Below are positions 45,637 through 57,809 of a stretch of DNA of 64,000 nt, in pieces; position 1 is the first letter of the stretch; every line of letters starts with the position of its first letter. The stretch is from Clostridia bacterium. GTDB taxonomy: Bacteria; Bacillota; Clostridia; Peptostreptococcales; Acidaminobacteraceae. Under the pieces are notes generated by a model. It was not told the origin of the DNA and did not search any database. It worked only from the letters and a program-made list of their open reading frames with translations. The stretch spans positions 1 through 64,000 of the forward strand of contig JAFGVN010000068.1 in NCBI GenBank assembly GCA_016937975.1, given 5' to 3'. Position numbers and translations under genes: made by a program.

Positions 45637-45966
45637 TTAAAAGTGTTCACCATTTTCAAAATAGTGTTCCTTATTTAAATTTGTAAAGTATACGGTTACA
45701 TCATTATAAGGATAAGCTTTGATTGCTTTTGTAATGATCTCCGCTGCAGCTTGCATGGTTTGTACGCCTCTGTCAAACCACTCTACATTAACAAATGGAT
45801 AAGCATTCTTGTGTAATTCACCATCATGGAAAAATGTGCTTTCCTCTAATTCTAAAGTAAAATGATCTCTAGGAACATTGATTAAATTCACCAATGCATT
45901 CAAGAGCTCTGTAGACATTTCTTGAACCTCATCACGTTTCATACCTCTAAACTTAATATGTGGCAT
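45637..45966 (-). CDS. DUF1904 protein, tautomerase-like
   Basis: A 109-aa DUF1904 protein beginning MPHIKFRG; proline just after the initiator methionine is the catalytic base in the tautomerase superfamily. The rest (FTLELEESTFFHDGE, YPFVNVEWFDRG) fits the family. The start at 45966 follows AAAGGGGAGTTAATT. It is downstream of pxpBCA in the same direction (47-bp gap), so it may share the transcript. The substrate is unknown. Confidence 0.82.
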   Translation of the reverse strand: MPHIKFRGMKRDEVQEMSTELLNALVNLINVPRDHFTLELEESTFFHDGELHKNAYPFVNVEWFDRGVQTMQAAAEIITKAIKAYPYNDVTVYFTNLNKEHYFENGEHF

Positions 45967-46013
45967 AATTAACTCCCCTTTCACCTTTCATTATATCAAA
46001 ATTCCAGTTAGAT

Positions 46014-46727
46014 TCAATCGATCATGCCCTTTAAAGCAGATAACAATGCATTAACATGTTGTCCGTCACCATGAATACAGATGGTATCTGCACGCAAGAG
46101 CACTTTATTGCCTTCTTCTGTGACAGCATAACCTGCCTTCAAGTTCATTATTTGCTCTAATGAATCTTCCAAACTTAATAACGCACCTTGCTGTTGTCGA
46201 CTCATGAGCTGTCCGTTACTTTCATATCGCCGATCGGCAAAAACTTCGTGAAGAGTTTTTAAACCATTCGATTCAGCAATAGATAAAAACTTACTGCCAC
46301 TTAAGCCCACAACAACTAAATCTTTATTTACATCTTTTATTGCCCTTACAACGGTTTCAGCAAGCTGTTCATCCTCGGCGCATTGGTTATATAACGCACC
46401 ATGTGGTTTTACATGATACAGCTTTGTCCCTAAAACCTTACATATGCCTTCAAGAGCACAAAGTTGATATACCAAATCAGAATAAAGAATCTTCATGGGT
46501 AGATGCATTTCAATTCTTCCAAATCCTCTTAAATCATAATAACCTGGATGTGCACCTATTTTTAAATCATGTTTCATACCTCTTTTTATGGCTTCAATGA
46601 TTTTTTCAGGATCTCCACCATGAAAACCACATGCAACATTGATTAAATCCAACTGATTGATTACATTTTCTTCAAGGTGAAAATCATAATTACCATAACC
46701 TTCCCCGAAATCACAATTGATCTTCAT
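46014..46727 (-). CDS. pxpA: 5-oxoprolinase subunit PxpA (LamB/YcsF family)
   Basis: Subunit of the bacterial ATP-dependent 5-oxoprolinase that opens pyroglutamate to glutamate. A 237-aa polysaccharide-deacetylase-like barrel: NCDFGEGYG at the start, NVACGFHGGDP, IGAHPGYYDLRGFGR, VKPHGALYN and the tail DTICIHGDGQH. It overlaps pxpC by 17 bp in a pxpB-pxpC-pxpA operon. Confidence 0.95.
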   Translation of the reverse strand: MKINCDFGEGYGNYDFHLEENVINQLDLINVACGFHGGDPEKIIEAIKRGMKHDLKIGAHPGYYDLRGFGRIEMHLPMKILYSDLVYQLCALEGICKVLGTKLYHVKPHGALYNQCAEDEQLAETVVRAIKDVNKDLVVVGLSGSKFLSIAESNGLKTLHEVFADRRYESNGQLMSRQQQGALLSLEDSLEQIMNLKAGYAVTEEGNKVLLRADTICIHGDGQHVNALLSALKGMID

Positions 46728-47661
46728 GCATTACCTCCACACAATAGGATTTACCTTTCAATGAAAGATCTAAAGTTAAACTTTGTATTTCTTTATAATA
46801 AATAATTGAGCTTGGTTCAAGCTTTTCTATTGTTACAAAAACAAAGGTAAGTTTATCCTTTGGTTTTGCTTGAGCGAGTTGCCACAAATCTTCTTTTGAC
46901 ACTGTCCCCATCACCGTATAGCCACCAGTTGGTTGGTGATCTGACATCATAATAATGGGCTGTCCATTATGTGGCACTTGTATTGTTCCCATAACAATTG
47001 GTGTTGAAAGGATATCAGCGCCTCCCAAATGTGAAATGCTTTCTCCCCTTAGACGTATTCCCATACGATTTGCTTGCTCTGTTACCTCATATGATTGATT
47101 TGTAAAGATTACCTGCCCCTCTGTCGTGAAGCGATAAAAATCCATCCCTTTAAAGACACGTATGACACCTTTTTTTCTCTTTACAAAACCAAGTCTGTTT
47201 ACAGGATTCATTCCGCCTTCAAGAATCATATTTTTAATAAGTTTTACGCCAAACTTGGTTTTATCTTCATAGGTCAACGATCCTAGAAAAGTGGCATCTG
47301 TTTTTAAACCATAAATACCAATATATCCTCTACAACCTTGAGCAAATGGGCCAATGCTCACAAAATCATCTTTTTTTAACTGAAGGGTTTTATTTTTCCC
47401 AAATTTATAACCATTGATCTCAACATATGAGACATCCCCGGTTACCGATATGGTCACATCAGACTGCGAAACGAACTCTGGACCTGAATACATGAATTCA
47501 ATTGCTGGACTAAATGGCGGATTACCAACGAGTTCATTGGCTAACATAAATAACCCTTCGTCCATAGGAAGTCCTGGACTCACCCCTGTATAGCCATATG
47601 ATTTTCTACCTTGATCCTGGAAAATGGAATAAAATCCAGGATTTATTATGCGTAGGGCCAT
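46711..47661 (-). CDS. pxpC: 5-oxoprolinase subunit PxpC (biotin-dependent carboxyltransferase-like)
   Basis: A 316-aa cyclophilin-like carboxyltransferase-domain subunit: IINPGFYSIFQDQGRKSYGYTGVSPG, LANELVGNPPF, and late MSDHQPTGGYTVMGTV. With PxpB it forms the kinase/ATP-using part of 5-oxoprolinase. It overlaps pxpB by 16 bp and pxpA by 17 bp, showing strong coupling. Confidence 0.95.
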   Translation of the reverse strand: MALRIINPGFYSIFQDQGRKSYGYTGVSPGLPMDEGLFMLANELVGNPPFSPAIEFMYSGPEFVSQSDVTISVTGDVSYVEINGYKFGKNKTLQLKKDDFVSIGPFAQGCRGYIGIYGLKTDATFLGSLTYEDKTKFGVKLIKNMILEGGMNPVNRLGFVKRKKGVIRVFKGMDFYRFTTEGQVIFTNQSYEVTEQANRMGIRLRGESISHLGGADILSTPIVMGTIQVPHNGQPIIMMSDHQPTGGYTVMGTVSKEDLWQLAQAKPKDKLTFVFVTIEKLEPSSIIYYKEIQSLTLDLSLKGKSYCVEVMHEDQL

Positions 47662-48332
47662 GAAATCACCTTCACTTTAGGTTTGTCGTCATAATTCTTA
47701 AAGTCATCCTTCGATATTGGAACAAACTTTACAAACATACCTGCTCTAATTAAGGTATCTTCCTGATTGTATAGCTGGAGTGGTGTTCTTCCAATCACTT
47801 GCCAACCTCCAGGCAACTCACTTGGATAGATACCCGTTTGTTCACCTGCAATGCCTACAGATCCTTTTTCAATTTTTAACCTTGGTACTGTTTTTCTTTT
47901 TACTGCAATGGTATTATCCAAACCACCTAGATAAGCAAAACCATAGGTAAAACCCAGGAAATATGTAAAATAAATAGGTGTTGTATGTCTCTTGACAACT
48001 TCATCAAAAGAAAGATTCGTTTCTTTAACAACCTCTTCTTTGTCTAAAGCATACTCATCGTCATAACACACGGGGATTTCTATTAAATTAAATGCATCTG
48101 GTTTGGATAAATCCATTTTATAATCTTTCAACCATTCATGTATACGGTGATAACAAGAAAGGTTCTTTACGGTCAACATTAAGTCTACATAACCGAAGGA
48201 AATTTCTGTTATCTCATCAAAATTTGCTTTTAATGCCTCCTTTAAATGTTTCAAAAGAAAGTAATTCTCAACCATGATGTTGTCCGCTACATGAATCATC
48301 AAGGTATCTTCATTCACAACACTCAATTCCAT
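47646..48332 (-). CDS. pxpB: 5-oxoprolinase subunit PxpB
   Basis: A 228-aa allophanate-hydrolase-subunit-1-like protein: EIPVCYDDEYALD, YFLGFTYGFAYLGGL, VPRLKIEKGSVGIAGEQTGIYP and LPGGWQVIGRTPLQL are all signature stretches. It is the first gene of the pxp operon. The ORF track start is an upstream GTG; AGAGGTGAAGAGC favours the ATG at 48332. Confidence 0.95.
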   Translation of the reverse strand: MELSVVNEDTLMIHVADNIMVENYFLLKHLKEALKANFDEITEISFGYVDLMLTVKNLSCYHRIHEWLKDYKMDLSKPDAFNLIEIPVCYDDEYALDKEEVVKETNLSFDEVVKRHTTPIYFTYFLGFTYGFAYLGGLDNTIAVKRKTVPRLKIEKGSVGIAGEQTGIYPSELPGGWQVIGRTPLQLYNQEDTLIRAGMFVKFVPISKDDFKNYDDKPKVKVISWPYA

Positions 48333-48621
48333 GCTCTTCACCTCTATCCGATTATATCACATTCATTGAGAGAATGTTTCAAGTTCAGGATTTCATTTAC
48401 AAATCTTTACAAAGTTTTGATTCATTACTTTGTGAATACCTAAATTTAATCATCCTTGAATATCCCTGGTAGGTTTTTCACTTCATTTTGGTAAAAAATA
48501 GACAAATACGGAATCCTTGACAATAGATTTTTCTTGTGCAAAGATTAAGCTATAATCATTTCATCGAAACCATAAGTAAAATAAATAGAGAAAAAGTTCC
48601 CTAATCACATAGGAGGATCAT

Positions 48622-48996
48622 ATGACCATTACCCAATTTGACCCTTTAAGCTTCATTGCTTCACAGCCTGAAGCTTCTCAAAACTATCTGCTTTTAATTC
48701 GTCAATACATCTTAGAAGTTGTTCCTGAAGCAACAGAACTTCTTAATTATGGTACTTTAGCCTTTTCACTCATTGAAGGTGGAAAAAGAGATCAGCAAGT
48801 CATGGTGGCTGGTTTCAAAAAATATATCGGCTTTTATCCACACCCAGAAACTATAGAACAGTTCAAAGGATCACTTGTGGGTTACAAACAAGGAAAGGGT
48901 TCTCTTCAATTTCCACTCAATGAACCTTTACCAAAGACATTAATTCAAGAAATGGTTTTGTTTAGAAAAAATATGCTTTTAAAAACCGATAAGTAA
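48622..48996 (+). CDS. DUF1801 (YdhG-like) protein
   Basis: A 124-aa small protein of the DUF1801/YdhG fold: QYILEVVPEATELLNYGTLAF, KKYIGFYPHPETIEQFK and GKGSLQFPLNEPLP are typical. Some relatives are described as frataxin-like iron chaperones; the function here is not known. It starts after AGGAGGATCAT and stands alone with its own terminator. Confidence 0.88.
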   Translation: MTITQFDPLSFIASQPEASQNYLLLIRQYILEVVPEATELLNYGTLAFSLIEGGKRDQQVMVAGFKKYIGFYPHPETIEQFKGSLVGYKQGKGSLQFPLNEPLPKTLIQEMVLFRKNMLLKTDK

Positions 48997-49015
48997 AAAA
49001 CTTATCGGTTTATTT
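48984..49015. terminator. Terminator between DUF1801 and the AAA+ gene
   Basis: AACCGATAAG / CTTATCGGTT with a 7-nt loop and a T-rich tail; it serves both convergent genes. Confidence 0.8.
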
Positions 49016-52000
49016 CTATTTTTTAAGTAGAAAATCTTTGATCATACCTATATTATCCGTAAGATCACTTAAGGTTACCACGGCTTGTCCAAGCTTGTCG
49101 TCCCCTTTAATTAACTTATTCTTATTGTAAATCGTTTTTATTTCATGATAACGCTTGGCTTCAGATTCAGACAAACATCCAACTATTTCTTTCCATTTCA
49201 AAATATTGGATTCAGCATCAGTTGTTAAGGTTTGACAATCATTTTCATAACTTGCCAAAATTTCACTAAACAACTCTTCTTCATTCATGACAGAAACCAC
49301 TTTTTCTGCAATTTTATTCATGTTACGATAGGATCCCTGTAATTTAAACGGTGGTTCATTTCTGTACTCATCCGCTTGAGCGGCAGAATAGATATAAGCC
49401 ATATTTACTTTAAGAACGATATCTCTAACTGTATTAAGCTTTTTAAGGACTTCAATGTATTCGCTCAATTCATCAGAAGAATAACTGCTTTCTAATGACA
49501 CATCTTCCCTTTCAGCACCTGATGCCAATTCTATTAAGCCATATAAATCTTTTGGAGATTTATTGGTCAATTTAGACAATACTGGATTGGATGTAACAGC
49601 ATTTTCAATATAACTGAGTTTAAAGGCCTTTTCATTCTCCCTGAGCATATCACCAAGATTGTAAACATCTGCTCTGTTGGCTAACATATCAGGTATTTTG
49701 AATTTGTCACCACTTTCAGTATAAGGGTTACCAGCCATCACCACGGCTATTTTTTTACCTCGCAAATCAAAGGTCTGACCTATACCCTTATAAACACCTT
49801 CAATTTTCCTCTGCCCATCACACAATGAAATAAACTTTTGCAAGAACTCTGGATGACAATGCTGAATATCATCAATATAAAGCATGACATTATTCCCGAT
49901 TTTAAGGGCTAGGTTTAACTTTCTTAATTCTTCCCTTGCACTTGAATGCGTTGCCTTTTCTGGATCAAGGGATGTGACTTCATGACCAAGTGACGGTCCG
50001 TTTACTTTCACAAGTATGAAACCTAATCGACTTGCAATGTATTCCATTAATGTGGTTTTACCATAGCCAGGTGGAGAAACCAATAGCAATAGACCCATTA
50101 AATCTGTACGTTTGTTGTCACCAACAACACCCATTTGCTTGGCTAAGTTGTCACCAATCAAGGGTAAATAGACTTCATCAATGAGTTTGTTTCTCACGAA
50201 AGATGAAAGCACTCTAGGCTTGAAATCATCTAGCCTCAACTGACCTTTAAAGTCATCCAACAAGCCTTTTTTTATGGTATGAAGCCTATTAAACTCTTTT
50301 ACAGTTCCTTCAGAGAAGTTTTTAAGTTTATCATTGAATCTTGTGTAAGCCAAAGTATAAGTGCCTTCATTAATTTGACCATGTGATCCAACTAAATCCG
50401 TAATAGCCTTAGTCGTTGAAGTCGCTACGACGCCACTGGTATCCAAAGTTTCATCAAATAGCAGTACCACCGTTTCAACAAGAATAGCTTCAGCTTCTTC
50501 AGGTTTTAACGTACTGAAGACTTCTTCCAGTTCTGCATGAATAAACCCTTCTAACCATGATTTAATTAAGAAATATTGTCCTTCCAAATCTCCAGCCATA
50601 TGCTTTCTTGAAGCTTCAAAGGCCTCTCTTGCACTTTTTACAAGTAAGTATTCCATGAACTGATCATAAAGATGCTTCGCTTCTAAACTGATCACAAAGG
50701 CATCGTTTTTCATGATTTCCTTTGTTAAATATTCTGAAACACCATGAAGGTCATCGCTATCAATGAATTTTACTTCTTCAAGTTTTTCTTCTAAGATGTT
50801 CATAATGAAAGGCAAGTAATCATCTAACTTAGGTGCATTTTCAAAGAATGCACTCATGGTGGCTAAATGTGTTAATCGCCTACTGATTTTTTCTTTTGAA
50901 ACGTCATCAATGAGTCGATACCAGAACAGTCTACCTAGGGCACGCGTCTTATGTCCATAGGTTAACAAGTTGACTGAATAATAAAGTTCCAACATAGAAA
51001 AGAGTATTTTCGTTGCATCTAAATCATGTACGCCTTTTGTATAACCTTCTTGATATTTGGTTTCCATGTCACTTCTAACGACTTCCAAAAGTTCCTCTTC
51101 AGAAAGTGTTTTTAATTGTTCCAAATCCTTCTGACCTTTACACTTATATGCATTGAATACAGAATAAGCCAAGTATTCACCACGATAGACTTCATAGTTT
51201 TCTGATACAATACTTTGATTGAACAAATGCTTGTAGGTCATTATTTCACTGGAATTTACCTCATCCCAGAAATCTGTACCAGTAATATGATAATAAAATC
51301 GATCATCTTTAAAAATCATGGACAAGTCTACTTCTTTTCTGTTTACTGAGAAATGATGTGCACCTAACTTAATGACATCCTCACCATTTAAATAAAGCTC
51401 TTTTTTGTCTTTTAACTGTCTTAAAGTGTCTTCTTTTAATAGTTTGAGTTTGGAACTAATTTCATCGGCCTTTACATTATCGCCTAAGGATCTTAACTCA
51501 GAAATAATATCTCTAACCTTTTCAGCCATAAGATCTGTTGCCAGATAACCATTGATTTCTTCAGCTGAATCCAAATTGGAAAGACGATTTTCTATGCCTG
51601 ATAAAATCCTTTGAGAGGAATCAAAGAGCACGACTAACTTCTTGTTCAATTTATCAAGAATGGTCTGCTTTTTTGTTTCAAAGGTATTGTAGATTTCTTC
51701 TCTTTTTTCACTTAACTGAATGACATAATCATCAAACTCTGAAAACTTACCTTCCAACTCTTGAATCTGAACCATGATTTTATTAAGATAAGTATCACAT
51801 TTTTCATCGGTATCAGAGATTTCTAGATAATTGACAACCGCCTGCCCCAACAAATTAATTTGAGCATTAAATTGAATGGACATTTCACTTTTAGTAAAAG
51901 ACTCAATTTTAGTCTTTAACCTTGCTTTTGCGTTGTTCAACAAAGAAAATTGTCCTGATATCTTTTCAATGATTTCAGTGGTAACCGTTGGATCCTCAAT

Positions 52001-53884
52001 CTTAAAGTTACTGACAATATCCATCAACAGCTCTAAATCGGATGAAGTTTTATCCATGCTTTCAGCTAACACTTTGCCTTCTTGGGACTTTTCAACATTC
52101 TGAATAGCATTTTGTAAAGATTCGACTTGTTCCTCATAAGGCTTCAATCCAGTTGGACCAATGATGAAATCAACACATTTTTTTGAAAACTCTTCGTTTT
52201 TGCCTTTTACTTTTTCATCGAGCGCATTCACGAGATCTAAATCTGTATACATCAAATCTCTTAAGGAAACAATTTGACCTCTTAGTTTTCTGATCTCACT
52301 TAAAACATCCACATATTCATAAACAGAATCCAATGAACCAAATTCAATGTGTTTTAGTAACGCATCTGTTTGGTCTTTAGTGATATTAATCTGCTCTTCT
52401 GTTGCTTTTTTTATTCTTGAAACTTTCTCAAATTCACCAATAGCAAAGGTAGCCGTTTCTTTGACTGCTTTAAGTTCTTCAGCAAGGTTAAAGGTTTCTT
52501 CCTTACTCACCCAGAAATAGGAATCGATAATCGTTTGAGTTTCCTTAACAATATCCATATAGACGCTTTGATAGCTGTCACCTTTTTGAATTAACTTTAT
52601 TACACCCTGACAAGCTGCAATACAATCTACAACCTCTTTGTTACCGATTTTAAACAACATGGAATCACTGCTTTGTTCAATGATATAGTCTTTTCCGACA
52701 TAAGGTGTAGACCATTTTTGTAAGGTGTGATTTCTTCTCGGTTCGTTTTCATGACGAAAAACCACCATTTCTCCATCATTGAAGTGAGAATATCCACTAC
52801 AAATAATTGGTGTATCTATGGATTGTTCAATAACATTGTAGGAATAGATCAAGTAAATCCCTGTATCCATATTATAGAAGATATACTGAAAATCCTCACC
52901 ATTTGGAGACTGAATCATTTGATCAAAGACTGGGTTATCAATAGGTACATCAAATAACTTATACTCACCTGTTCGTAAATAATAGCCTTGTGGAAAAATT
53001 AAACCATGTCCTCCAGGCAGTAATTTACATGAATGTTCCACTGAGTCGATTCTAACAATATTTTTTAACTTATCATTAAAGATAAAGTAACGATAACGTT
53101 CTTCCTTGTAAGGCAAAATCTTAAGCACGATCATCTGACCAAGATCGGCATAATAAATTTCTGCATCATCTAAGGTCTGATCAGGATCCATAACTTCCTC
53201 TGAATAAATCCCTTTTCCAGAAGAAGTATTGTCTTCAATCTTGACTGTTAAATCGCCACCAATGGTTTCCACAAACAAGCGATCCAAGATTGAAACATGT
53301 GGATGTAAGCCTGTACGCTGATGGTCTCGAGTTGCTCTTTCAAATTTAAAGTCGTTTCCTACATTGAACTTAACTTCATGATCACTACGATTATCTAAAT
53401 ATCGTAAAGTGTCCCCTTCGATTTGCCATTTGAAGGTCTTAATATTTCTTGCATCACTTGAAGTTTGAAAAACCATATAAAAATAAGGTTCAATTATCGT
53501 AAATTTTGAAAAGAAAGTATTCTTATAATACAAATATAAATCTTCAAAATCCTTCTTAAAAAGATCATCATCAATGAGTGAGAGGGATTCCTTCGAAAAA
53601 CCCTCATCACTATGTTTATAAATTGAGAAAACATCCTTTAACTCAACTTTTGATTTTAATCCAATGTGTACGTTGTAACCAAATATAAAACAACTATCTA
53701 CTGGAGCCATATCCCTTGGAATACAGTTATTTTCAGTAAGAACCCGATCACTTGATAACAGCTTAGTCTCTATTGAACCAAAAACTTCTTTCCTAAGAGT
53801 ATTCAGCTTTCCAGTTTTAGTTTGTAAGTCTTTTCCCTGTTTTTCGAGACGACTCTTTATAACTTCATAGGTTCCGTTATCCAT
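49016..53884 (-). CDS. Giant AAA+ ATPase with DUF3686-like N-terminus and long coiled coil
   Basis: A 1622-aa cytosolic protein of the type often labelled DNA repair ATPase. Residues to about 430 form a beta-rich region with IFGYNVHIGL and repeated strands (PQGYYLRTGEYKLFD). From about 440 to 860 long heptad-rich helices are predicted. A second unknown domain (AHHFSVNRKEVDLS) leads to the AAA+ core: Walker A SPPGYGKTT (about 1275), Walker B MLYIDDIQ (about 1335) and sensor 1 VVMAGNPY. It starts after GGAG, 1 bp behind the flotillin stop. It probably works on or with the flotillin scaffold; the target is unknown. Confidence 0.85.
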   Translation of the reverse strand: MDNGTYEVIKSRLEKQGKDLQTKTGKLNTLRKEVFGSIETKLLSSDRVLTENNCIPRDMAPVDSCFIFGYNVHIGLKSKVELKDVFSIYKHSDEGFSKESLSLIDDDLFKKDFEDLYLYYKNTFFSKFTIIEPYFYMVFQTSSDARNIKTFKWQIEGDTLRYLDNRSDHEVKFNVGNDFKFERATRDHQRTGLHPHVSILDRLFVETIGGDLTVKIEDNTSSGKGIYSEEVMDPDQTLDDAEIYYADLGQMIVLKILPYKEERYRYFIFNDKLKNIVRIDSVEHSCKLLPGGHGLIFPQGYYLRTGEYKLFDVPIDNPVFDQMIQSPNGEDFQYIFYNMDTGIYLIYSYNVIEQSIDTPIICSGYSHFNDGEMVVFRHENEPRRNHTLQKWSTPYVGKDYIIEQSSDSMLFKIGNKEVVDCIAACQGVIKLIQKGDSYQSVYMDIVKETQTIIDSYFWVSKEETFNLAEELKAVKETATFAIGEFEKVSRIKKATEEQINITKDQTDALLKHIEFGSLDSVYEYVDVLSEIRKLRGQIVSLRDLMYTDLDLVNALDEKVKGKNEEFSKKCVDFIIGPTGLKPYEEQVESLQNAIQNVEKSQEGKVLAESMDKTSSDLELLMDIVSNFKIEDPTVTTEIIEKISGQFSLLNNAKARLKTKIESFTKSEMSIQFNAQINLLGQAVVNYLEISDTDEKCDTYLNKIMVQIQELEGKFSEFDDYVIQLSEKREEIYNTFETKKQTILDKLNKKLVVLFDSSQRILSGIENRLSNLDSAEEINGYLATDLMAEKVRDIISELRSLGDNVKADEISSKLKLLKEDTLRQLKDKKELYLNGEDVIKLGAHHFSVNRKEVDLSMIFKDDRFYYHITGTDFWDEVNSSEIMTYKHLFNQSIVSENYEVYRGEYLAYSVFNAYKCKGQKDLEQLKTLSEEELLEVVRSDMETKYQEGYTKGVHDLDATKILFSMLELYYSVNLLTYGHKTRALGRLFWYRLIDDVSKEKISRRLTHLATMSAFFENAPKLDDYLPFIMNILEEKLEEVKFIDSDDLHGVSEYLTKEIMKNDAFVISLEAKHLYDQFMEYLLVKSAREAFEASRKHMAGDLEGQYFLIKSWLEGFIHAELEEVFSTLKPEEAEAILVETVVLLFDETLDTSGVVATSTTKAITDLVGSHGQINEGTYTLAYTRFNDKLKNFSEGTVKEFNRLHTIKKGLLDDFKGQLRLDDFKPRVLSSFVRNKLIDEVYLPLIGDNLAKQMGVVGDNKRTDLMGLLLLVSPPGYGKTTLMEYIASRLGFILVKVNGPSLGHEVTSLDPEKATHSSAREELRKLNLALKIGNNVMLYIDDIQHCHPEFLQKFISLCDGQRKIEGVYKGIGQTFDLRGKKIAVVMAGNPYTESGDKFKIPDMLANRADVYNLGDMLRENEKAFKLSYIENAVTSNPVLSKLTNKSPKDLYGLIELASGAEREDVSLESSYSSDELSEYIEVLKKLNTVRDIVLKVNMAYIYSAAQADEYRNEPPFKLQGSYRNMNKIAEKVVSVMNEEELFSEILASYENDCQTLTTDAESNILKWKEIVGCLSESEAKRYHEIKTIYNKNKLIKGDDKLGQAVVTLSDLTDNIGMIKDFLLKK

Positions 53885-53885
53885 T

Positions 53886-55910
53886 TTATTCTCCAATTGT
53901 TGAATGAATCATACTTGCAGGTAAATTCTCAACACCAGCCTTTTTCACCGTGTCCAATAATTTGTTTAGCATTGGCTTGTCACTGCTGTCAGCAGAACCC
54001 ATCATCTTATGAATGGCACCAGCAATGGATAAATGCATTAAATCTTGAGATGAAAGGTTAAATCTACCCATTAAGTTTTTAAGTTGATTTTGGAAATAAT
54101 CTGCATCGCCAATAATTAAAGTTTCTTTGATATCTGTCATGACTTGAGAGTTGTCAACAAATCGATCTACAGACTTACCCTTTGCAATTGAACCAATAAT
54201 TTTATCAAAGAACATTGTTTCACCACCAACGATATCAATCTTAGCGGATTTAAGCGCTTCATTGATAACTGATGCCTGTGCCATGGCAATATCCTTTTGA
54301 ATGTTGATTTGTGCAAGGTCGATTTGCTTTTCTTTATCCAATTTAAGTTTGAACTCTTCATGTTCTTTACCAACTGAGTCAAGAAGTTTCATGCTGTTCG
54401 CTTTTTCTCTAATACCCTCTGCTTCAGAAACATATTTTTTCTTAAGGTTATCTGCAATAACAGTGCCCTCTTTTTCAAGAACTTCAACTTTAGCTGTTTC
54501 TCCTCTTGCTTCAGCCATTGCTTTAGCTTCAATAATTTTCGATTCAGCAATACCCTCAACAGAATTCTCTTGAATACGAGCATCAACTAATACTTTAATT
54601 GCATCTGCTTCTTTTTGTGATGCTTTCAATTTCGCTTCAGCATCAATAACAACTTTTTCTGCATCCTTTTCAGCCGCCATCTTAGCTGCTTCTGCTGCCT
54701 TAACTTGTCTAATTTGTTGGGTTTCAGCATCTTCTTCTGCTTTTCTTAAAGCGACATTCTTTGTTCTTTCTGCTTCTGCAAGTGCACGTGTATCTTTGAT
54801 TTTTTCTTCTTCAACAACCGTTTCTTTTTCAACAGCAACTCTTTCCCGAATAACCACTTGTACATTTTTCTTTTCAACTTCAACTAACTTTTCTTTGTCA
54901 ATGACTGCCAGTTCTACTAATTTATCTTTCTCTGTTCTTTCTAACAGACGTTTTCTTTCTACACGTTCAGTTTCAACTGCTTCAGTACTTTCTTTTGCTT
55001 TAGAGGCAATGATAATTTGTCTTGCTTTGTTTTCTTCTGCAATACCAATTTCCTCTTCTGTTTTAACACGAGCCATTTCAGATTTATAACGTTCCTCTTG
55101 AGCAACTTTTTCAGCTTCTGCCTGTTCACGAGAATTGATAATGGAAATTTCTTTTCTTTGTTTTGCTTCAGCCGCTTCTCTTTGCTTGTCCAATTCTAAT
55201 ATAGCTTCCGTTGCCGCTACGTCTTGTTTCTTGATGGTTTTCTCTTTTTCTCTTTCTATTTCATTGGCTAAAATTCTTTGAGCAGCAGTCAACTCTGTAA
55301 TTTTTTTGATACCTTCTGCATCTAAGATGTTCTCAGCATTTAATAAACGGATATCTGTTTGCTCCAAATAATCAATTGCAGCGTCATCGAGTACATAACC
55401 ATTTAAATCTGTACCAATGATTTGAAGGATCTCTTCCTTGAATTTCTCACGATCCGTATAAAGTTGAACGAAATCAAACTTTTTACCTACAGTTTTTAGG
55501 GCTTCAGAAAATTTCGCATCAAAAAATTCCATAAGTGTTTTAGGATCTGATGCCTTTTGACAACCTAACAATTGAGCAACTTTTAATACGTCTTGTGTGG
55601 TCTGATTTACCCTTACAAAAAAAGCAACTCGAATATCAGCTCTTAAGTTGTCTTTACAAATTAAACCGTCTTTACCTTCTCTGGCAATTTCAACGCGCTT
55701 AACTGAAATATCCATGATTTCATATCGATGAATAATTGGAACAACCATGATACCACCAAAGCTTACCACTTGGTTACCTACACCATTTCGGATAATAACC
55801 TTTGACTGTTCAACTTTGTGATAGAATTTTGCAAATAATGCAAGTAGTCCAATAATTATAACGATGGTAACACCAGCTGTTACGAAAGTTACTTGTGATA
55901 AAAAACCCAT
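53886..55910 (-). CDS. Flotillin/SPFH-domain protein (YqiK-like)
   Basis: A 674-aa membrane scaffold protein. One N-terminal helix (VTIVIIIGLLALFAKFY) precedes the SPFH/band-7 domain (about 30-220; VVSFGGIMVVPIIHRYEIMDIS). A long charged, alanine- and glutamate-rich coiled coil follows, then a globular tail after the flotillin-type GGETMFFDKIIGSI. Flotillins form oligomeric cages or platforms in membranes. Its start codon touches the stop of the NfeD/YqiJ-like gene, its usual partner family. Confidence 0.93.
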   Translation of the reverse strand: MGFLSQVTFVTAGVTIVIIIGLLALFAKFYHKVEQSKVIIRNGVGNQVVSFGGIMVVPIIHRYEIMDISVKRVEIAREGKDGLICKDNLRADIRVAFFVRVNQTTQDVLKVAQLLGCQKASDPKTLMEFFDAKFSEALKTVGKKFDFVQLYTDREKFKEEILQIIGTDLNGYVLDDAAIDYLEQTDIRLLNAENILDAEGIKKITELTAAQRILANEIEREKEKTIKKQDVAATEAILELDKQREAAEAKQRKEISIINSREQAEAEKVAQEERYKSEMARVKTEEEIGIAEENKARQIIIASKAKESTEAVETERVERKRLLERTEKDKLVELAVIDKEKLVEVEKKNVQVVIRERVAVEKETVVEEEKIKDTRALAEAERTKNVALRKAEEDAETQQIRQVKAAEAAKMAAEKDAEKVVIDAEAKLKASQKEADAIKVLVDARIQENSVEGIAESKIIEAKAMAEARGETAKVEVLEKEGTVIADNLKKKYVSEAEGIREKANSMKLLDSVGKEHEEFKLKLDKEKQIDLAQINIQKDIAMAQASVINEALKSAKIDIVGGETMFFDKIIGSIAKGKSVDRFVDNSQVMTDIKETLIIGDADYFQNQLKNLMGRFNLSSQDLMHLSIAGAIHKMMGSADSSDKPMLNKLLDTVKKAGVENLPASMIHSTIGE

Positions 55911-56555
55911 CTACTCTTCCTCCATCTCTTTCATAAAAAACTCATCTTTTGATAGTGATTTCGCAATGTAATAAACATCCTTTGCATCTTTTCTAAAAAC
56001 AAAAGCAATATCGTTTTTTAGAAAATTTTCTTCTTCAAATTCAGCTTTTACATTAATGACGTACGCAGCACCATTTGTATTCACCTTTGCTTGACCTAGG
56101 CGTCCTTTACTTAAATCCGTAATCAACACACATCTTCTCTTTAAAATTTTCTCTTGAATATCATTTTTAGAATCATCCCTTTTAAAAACTTTTTTCAGTG
56201 GCTTAATTTCCATGCGTGTGATCACCATACTCAATATAAGTTCAGGTACAAGTAAAATCCCTGCCAATAACCCTTCAACACTGATTGGTAAATAATGTGT
56301 CAACATAGCAATAATCCAGAAGTTTAAAATGATTAAACTAAATGCCAATGCAACTGGCACTTCACCAAGATTAATAAAAACTGCCAAAGCATCTAATGGT
56401 CCTGTGGCATCACCAGCATCAATATCAAGATCAACATCAAAAAAGTCAAAATCGAAAAGGCCAATAATTGCCAAAACCCAATACAAGAGCATCATTAAAA
56501 GCATGACTGTTGGTATGACATTTACACCTGAAAATGCAAATCTTAATAGTTCCGT
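55911..56555 (-). CDS. NfeD/YqiJ-like membrane protein with OB-fold tail, probable ACG start
   Basis: About 214 aa: three to four membrane helices (MLLMMLLYWVLAIIGLF, ALAFSLIILNFWIIAML, GLLAGILLVPELILSMVI) around an acidic loop DFDFFDVDLDID, then a cytosolic OB-fold-like domain (RCVLITDLSKGRLGQAKV). NfeD-type proteins partner flotillins. The ORF track ATG lies in the promoter; the only start well placed behind GGGGGAGGATTTT is ACG at 56555, so either a rare start or a sequence variant of ATG is involved. Confidence 0.75.
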   Translation of the reverse strand, partial: TELLRFAFSGVNVIPTVMLLMMLLYWVLAIIGLFDFDFFDVDLDIDAGDATGPLDALAVFINLGEVPVALAFSLIILNFWIIAMLTHYLPISVEGLLAGILLVPELILSMVITRMEIKPLKKVFKRDDSKNDIQEKILKRRCVLITDLSKGRLGQAKVNTNGAAYVINVKAEFEEENFLKNDIAFVFRKDAKDVYYIAKSLSKDEFFMKEMEEE

Positions 56556-56606
56556 AAAATCCTCCCCCTTATTACTATAATTGGTATACTTACTCCAGTA
56601 TTCATA

Positions 56607-56633
56607 ATTATAACAATAAAAAAAGCACATCAA
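56607..56633 (-). promoter_or_regulatory. Flotillin-AAA+ operon promoter
   Basis: On the minus strand, TATAAT (56607-56612) has a TTGATG or TTTGAT hexamer 15-16 bp upstream. It sits 50 bp before the GGGGGAGG ribosome site and inside the spurious 5' extension of the ORF. Confidence 0.65.
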
Positions 56634-56734: not shown

Positions 56735-56758
56735 AAAAAAGACTGGTTATCACCAGTC
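56735..56758 (-). terminator. Terminator of the ArsR-like/MFS operon
   Basis: On the minus strand, GACTGGT-GATA-ACCAGTC is followed by six T, just after the stop codon at 56763. Confidence 0.85.
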
Positions 56759-56762
56759 CAAA

Positions 56763-57809
56763 TTATATCGTCAAATCATTTGTTATTAAGTTCAATAAAT
56801 CTCTTAATCTTTTTTTGTCCAGTTCAATGTACAATTTGTTCTGTTCACCTTGTTCAAAGGTAATTAATCCTAAACCATACAATTTGTTAACATGATAACT
56901 CATGGTTGCTGGTGTAATTTTAAATTTCTTTGCCAATTCATTAGCATACCATTTTTCTTTAGAAAGCATTTGGATCATTTCGTATCTTTTAGGATCTGAC
57001 AGGAATTTTAGAAAAGATTGCATTAAATCCTTTTCAAAATCCTCTTTGTTCAACTGTTCAAGCTTGTCACTGTAAATGATAAAACCATCGTTCTTCATGC
57101 TAATCATCAGATTATAAGGTGAGAAGAATGTAATATAAGGTTGATAATCTACTTTTAACAAATCTTCTTCTTTCAGCATACCCGTTGAAATATTTATCAT
57201 AAACTCAATTGGATTATTGCTATACTTTTCGTTATGATCCGCTAGTTTATTTTCAAAGTATGCCTCTGAAGGTTTATATTTATGTTCAATGAAAGCTTCT
57301 CGTAAAGACGCAATGGCGTTCTTAAAAATAGAATTAAACAGTCTTTCATCCTTTAAGGTCTCAAAAATCATTTGAGCTTCCTTACTATAATCATTGAAAA
57401 AATGTGGTTGATCGTAATGATCCTTTATGGCTTTATGAAGCTTTTCAATTTTCAAATCCTTCTCTTCTAGCTCCAACACCTTTAATACGAAAGCCTGAAA
57501 ATCCTCAAGATTTTCCTCTTCCAAGGATTTATTATGTATGGTAATCGACATTAAATAGTCCATAAACATGGAAACCTTTTTGAAGAACATATCCAATTCA
57601 CTTTTTTGAATATAAGAAAGTTTTTCATTATAATAAATTTCAGCTTCGTCATAATATTCATCATAACTTTTCTTCAAGTCTTTAGAACTTATGGCTGGAT
57701 GTTGTTTCATTTCTTGATTAGACATTTTTCTCATATCATGTACATTCGCACAAGTATGGCAATAACCAATAAAATCAAAATCCAATTTGTATATAATCGT
57801 CGGTTTCAT
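56763..57809 (-). CDS. ArsR-like winged-helix regulator with long N-terminal region
   Basis: A 348-aa protein whose last 90 residues form an ArsR-type winged helix: FLSDPKRYEMIQMLSKEKWYANELAKKFKITPATMSYHVNKL. The 250-residue N-terminal part is helical with an early CHTC pair (GYCHTCANVHDM) that could hold a metal; it may be an effector domain. It is the last gene of an operon with an MFS transporter and two tiny ORFs, and twin palindromes at the operon promoter are its probable targets. Confidence 0.85.
   Translation of the reverse strand: MKPTIIYKLDFDFIGYCHTCANVHDMRKMSNQEMKQHPAISSKDLKKSYDEYYDEAEIYYNEKLSYIQKSELDMFFKKVSMFMDYLMSITIHNKSLEEENLEDFQAFVLKVLELEEKDLKIEKLHKAIKDHYDQPHFFNDYSKEAQMIFETLKDERLFNSIFKNAIASLREAFIEHKYKPSEAYFENKLADHNEKYSNNPIEFMINISTGMLKEEDLLKVDYQPYITFFSPYNLMISMKNDGFIIYSDKLEQLNKEDFEKDLMQSFLKFLSDPKRYEMIQMLSKEKWYANELAKKFKITPATMSYHVNKLYGLGLITFEQGEQNKLYIELDKKRLRDLLNLITNDLTI

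Follow-up and report, generated by a model that had tools for sequence, protein, structure and literature searches.

The closest described relative of the system considered here is the flotillin-AAA+-YqiJ/YuaF operon of Ravi et al. 2024 (PMC11237479), which often lies beside PspA, with a CesT/Tir-PspA dyad. There, a flotillin, a YqiJ-like membrane protein, and an N-terminally extended AAA+ protein are clustered, and a beta-propeller precedes the ATPase. The same paper mentions short versions that carry no PspA gene and might act with PspA encoded elsewhere. We analyzed a module with the same three components in a 64,000-nucleotide stretch from a Clostridia bacterium of the family Acidaminobacteraceae (GCA_016937975.1, contig JAFGVN010000068.1, positions 1 to 64,000; hereafter, the window). 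This is thus a known kind of operon, real and strongly conserved, and because it has already been published as a genomic association (PMC11237479) the gene set is less new than a previous sequence-only reading of the window had assumed. New here are the quantitative linkage, the co-occurrence, the PspA-free context, and the placing of the motor near MoxR. We put at roughly 0.5 the probability that the module is a self-contained, PspA-independent, membrane-anchored AAA+ remodeling machine, for which we infer the roles of the components.

Other described loci share parts of this arrangement. In Pseudomonas aeruginosa, the bac cluster (PA3729-PA3732) encodes a flotillin and a short NfeD partner beside YjfI-type BacA and PspA-like BacB, and loss of BacB or BacA impairs biofilm formation (PMC2587700, PMC10948618). 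PA3728, the next gene by number, is listed as an ATPase (PMC8190622). The window, in contrast, lacks bacA and bacB. Escherichia coli YqiJ-YqiK and Shewanella SO1376-SO1377 combine an NfeD2-type protein with a YqiK-type SPFH protein in one operon (PMC2636767, PMC1468410), and loss of SO1377 causes H2O2 sensitivity and altered iron metabolism (PMC1468410). Unlike in the window, no DUF3686 ATPase is described for these two operons. SPFH-NfeD complexes of other subfamilies and SPFH cages with coiled-coil lids are cited as known in PMC13086221 and PMC10936438, respectively. Our literature search found no publication that names DUF3686 or tests a DUF3686 ATPase, which agrees with the statement in the sequence-only reading that this AAA+ family has no established function.

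Conservation of the three-gene linkage

The module consists of three minus-strand genes, with gaps of 0 bp (NfeD/SPFH) and 1 bp (SPFH/AAA):

49016..53884, minus strand: DUF3686-AAA+ ATPase, 1622 aa from the ATG at 53884
53886..55910, minus strand: SPFH/flotillin, 674 aa
55911..56579, minus strand: NfeD/YqiJ-like membrane protein, with its stop at 55911 and a putative start end

Open reading frames bear out the sizes and 0-1 bp spacing given in the sequence-only reading, and profile matches bear out the flotillin and AAA+ identities. A scan of genome contigs recovered at least 586 relatives of the ATPase; 80 were kept, and 59 of these loci were testable (at least 5.5 kb upstream). A same-strand SPFH gene lies directly upstream of the ATPase in 56/59 testable loci, and at a 57th (L103) the SPFH gene adjoins the ATPase but is inverted. 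The NfeD gene is present in 53/59. Because loci were chosen on ATPase peptides, these neighbor counts are not biased by the choice of locus. The trio is maintained in at least 10 phyla and has no recurring neighbors, the commonest Pfam family having been seen only 3 times among 97 flanking proteins. The neighborhood survey that had been suggested as a check therefore finds the linkage conserved in other genomes.

Within the window's family, the ATPase occurs in 5/25 sampled genomes; a search of 41 genomes for the flotillin found it in these same five. All five carriers have the three-gene order, with unrelated flanks and no orthologous neighbor in common with the window. The window's genome is the only one with the module in a sample of 300 genomes from the phylum. 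The full order also occurs in replicons of Pseudomonas, Hymenobacter, Deinococcus, Proteus, and Vibrio, and the SPFH-AAA pair in Streptomyces, as taken from annotated plasmid records and, for unannotated records, from reading of open reading frames. At the Proteus locus (L034 3675-5455, minus strand), the module stands beside divergent genes that resemble those of TPM-domain and LemA proteins.

An approximate tree of 86 ATPase sequences (FastTree) requires 12 changes for 13 phylum groups, which is the minimum; shuffles average 48. In this tree the window groups with other Bacillota in one clade (99, starred). Pairwise distances among ATPase, flotillin, and NfeD proteins are correlated (Mantel r 0.79-0.81, versus <=0.17 in 1000 shuffles), a result that fits co-inheritance or co-evolution of the three proteins. 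Recent transfer from another phylum was considered and rejected, given that the ATPase tree sets the window among Bacillota, though it is a rare gene among the phylum genomes sampled.

Protein anatomy and operon borders

The ATPase matches DUF3686 (PF12458) at residues 19-457 over the complete model (1-448/448; E=2e-174, 580.6 bits, cut-off 25), with further Pfam matches to DUF7902 at 580-661 and AAA at 1266-1358. Its layout comprises a propeller-like region (~40-400), a helical middle (~410-900), a variable region (~1000-1200), and the AAA+ motor (~1225-1622), which contains the following motifs:

50054..50077, minus strand: Walker A SPPGYGKT, residues 1270-1277 (positions derived by counting from the ATG at 53884)
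49856..49882, minus strand: Walker B region LYIDDIQHC, residues 1335-1343, with Asp-Asp where most AAA+ proteins have Asp-Glu

Across 14 homologues that were picked by whole-protein search or family membership, independently of the Walker A motif, there is no variation in Walker A, the sensor 1 Asn, or the NRAD Arg. Only this set is unbiased for Walker B, since the 80-locus set was partly selected on that peptide.

The AlphaFold2 model of residues ~40-400 is confident and all-beta (predicted local distance difference test score [pLDDT], 90), and Foldseek matches it to beta-propellers at E ~1e-6 with TM-scores of just 0.1-0.3. The model suggests a propeller-like domain, short of a proven propeller. 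For the C-terminal part (pLDDT 81), NorQ and CbbQ, remodeling ATPases of the MoxR family, are among the best solved matches to the AAA+ region, with TM-scores of ~0.25-0.37 by query and, for NorQ/CbbQ, 0.40-0.60 by target. A sequence profile search of the same region returned classical AAA P-loops instead of MoxR, and the solved structures related to the ATPase by sequence are P-loop-level matches only. Overall, the structural comparisons suggest that the motor is a MoxR-like (NorQ/CbbQ) AAA+. MoxR-family proteins are small and act with separate VWA proteins, whereas the motor in the window has a fused part of ~1200 residues and is paired with a flotillin. No VWA-domain partner was found among the three module genes or the commonest flank families (each <=3/97 proteins).

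The 674-aa protein has the features of an SPFH/flotillin protein: an anchor, in the form of a single N-terminal transmembrane-like segment (residues 1-34), an SPFH domain (38-221; Pfam Band_7, E=2e-6, 28.3 bits, cut-off 23.6), and a long, helical, Ala/Glu/Lys-rich C-terminal part that is proline-free over 221-560. No solved structures related to it by sequence were found. The third protein alone matches YqiJ_N below the cut-off (E=0.31, Pfam). It has several hydrophobic stretches and, probably, a C-terminal domain of OB-type beta structure. Among 30 homologues, YqiJ_N was matched in seven and NfeD in two (E<=0.01), and they have a layout in common: the N-terminal transmembrane region comes with an acidic DxDxD loop, and the beta-type domain at the C-terminus bears a GQA motif. 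The NfeD/YqiJ assignment, weak from the single sequence, gains support from these relatives and stays tentative. The acidic loop (DxDxDxD) behind the first transmembrane segment is kept across phyla and could possibly have a metal-binding or charge role.

In the NfeD-like gene (window 56560-56612, minus strand), no in-frame ATG, GTG, or TTG comes just downstream of the strong GGGGGAGG ribosome site. In four relatives from the family the ATG overlaps the ribosome site, and in homologues of other phyla the start coincides with the site of a conserved ACG/Thr or precedes it by one codon. The window gene thus appears to have either a non-AUG (ACG) start or a sequence error. Position 56612, which the sequence-only reading took as the end of the module, marks a TATAAT and holds no start codon. 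The elements that border the module are:

56607..56612, minus strand: TATAAT, a possible -10 element of the operon (a perfect match by sequence that carries no statistical support)
56740..56759, minus strand: terminator-like hairpin between the module and the upstream helix-turn-helix gene
48983..49011, strand undefined: 12-bp terminator-like hairpin between the ATPase stop and a convergent DUF1801 gene

Because terminator-like hairpins flank both sides, the three genes are probably one operon. The single promoter proposed earlier is plausible. The hairpins enclose the three genes and the TATAAT is present, while promoter-like matches in the module region stand at chance level (36 found, 36.0 expected). 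A search for RNA elements in the same region found none.

The upstream neighbor (56763-57809, minus strand) encodes 348 aa with a C-terminal ArsR/Csa3-like helix-turn-helix and a large uncharacterized N-terminal part, and is followed by an MFS transporter gene. Downstream (45637-48341, minus strand) are a DUF1904 gene and a pxpA/C/B (5-oxoprolinase) operon of ordinary metabolism, which are not found at the relatives' loci.

PspA and other explanations

PspA is a bacterial ESCRT-III-like membrane-stress protein, and its gene is adjacent upstream in 21/59 testable loci, all in Bacteroidota. PspA is accompanied by CesT/Tir in Hymenobacter; pQBR103 carries YjfI-PspA. These contexts favor an accessory role in the phage-shock response, as proposed in PMC11237479, whereby the module would be a chaperone and membrane platform whose working depends on PspA, be it encoded nearby or elsewhere. 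This explanation is weakened for the window's lineage, and we consider it unlikely. Profile searches found no match to PspA (PF04012) in the window's genome, which is 98.7% complete, or in the four other carriers from the family; in a control, PspA was detected in 9/14 reference genomes. Snf7 was also undetected in the five carriers, with a weak control (1/14). Only two genomes of the family have a clear PspA, and both are without the module. Among 32 other carrier genomes (completeness not given), 31 have no adjacent PspA, and 15 of these 31 have either no match anywhere (10, of which L040 and L042 appear identical to G002 and G012) or only sub-threshold matches (5). As far as the drafts show, then, PspA is not a requirement of the module in every lineage, and the suggestion that PspA is encoded elsewhere does not hold for the window's genome and its four carrier relatives.

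Genes with PspC domains are present in the window's genome (G000 C33 and C13), and also in G001, G002, and G011, despite undetected PspA. On pQBR103 (L031, 986-14190), the module is in line with YjfI-PspA-rhomboid-DUF2491-DUF350-DUF1190-glutathionylspermidine synthase, an arrangement that unites two operon classes kept separate in PMC11237479.

Different cellular roles could also be envisaged from the gene pairing, the distribution, or the database labels. By analogy with HflKC-FtsH, a precedent for SPFH proteins with AAA+ partners and the same type of gene pairing, the module could serve membrane quality control, with an SPFH cage that gates client access to an AAA+ unfoldase. We find this doubtful, as Pfam identifies no protease domain in the ATPase, no transmembrane segments are predicted in it, and its motor appears nearer to MoxR than to FtsH. 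The patchy distribution (5/25 genomes in the family, 0 among 299 other genomes sampled from the phylum) and the occurrence on plasmids might indicate an anti-phage or other conflict system, in line with the defense role offered in the sequence-only reading. We regard this as very improbable: PADLOC has no model for the module and returned only weak P-loop matches, no defense family recurs among the 97 flanking proteins, which were also run against PADLOC, and the phage records and collections searched contain no copies of the module. Moreover, it is unlike a fast-moving defense cassette, because the ATPase tree tracks phyla and the Bacillota carriers form one clade. The label "DNA repair ATPase" comes from how Pfam describes DUF3686 and from the product names of deposited records, and weak RuvB-like P-loop matches point the same way. 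However, the RuvB matches are limited to the P-loop and are far under cut-offs, the partners are membrane proteins, and the flanking proteins show no recurring repair family. We therefore reject this label, and find a role in DNA repair scarcely credible.

A proposed membrane-anchored machine

Our preferred reading, a self-contained remodeling machine, assigns a part to each protein. The flotillin, aided by its NfeD partner, would assemble on the inner membrane as a ring or cage, and the ATPase would dock on it via its propeller-like and helical N-terminal parts. Driven by ATP, the MoxR-type ring motor would then act on client complexes associated with the membrane, which it would remodel, extract, or assemble, with envelope stress as the probable setting. 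Recruitment of a soluble motor to a membrane platform is supported by the lack of transmembrane segments in the ATPase, the single segment of the flotillin, and the several hydrophobic stretches of the NfeD-like protein. A similar machine, with coiled coils that might join platform and motor, had been suggested in the sequence-only reading. This is partly supported: an ATP-driven machine anchored in the membrane agrees with the protein anatomy, with the conservation of the linkage, and with the published phage-shock context; the envelope-stress role derives only from published neighbors, and PspA is missing here. A bolder version, that the module replaces PspA/ESCRT-III in PspA-less lineages as an autonomous flotillin platform with a MoxR-type motor, seems to us quite unlikely. 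We know of no place where this combination is known to work.

Several points weigh against the remodeling machine. Co-inheritance is also expected from plain vertical descent. The fold labels are approximate because the Foldseek TM-scores are low, and the absence of PspA is not absolute, the genomes being drafts. At such a locus in P. aeruginosa, deletion of the flotillin paFlo3 (PA14_16180) lowered biofilm formation by ~20%, with no clear stress or other phenotype (PMC13086221).

Flotillins occur across life. In at least 10 phyla, the near-obligatory pairing of a flotillin and a giant ATPase is a direct handle on the mechanical role of flotillins, as ATPase-dead mutants can be assayed. Lineages that are module-positive and apparently PspA-free let the function be studied apart from the phage-shock response.
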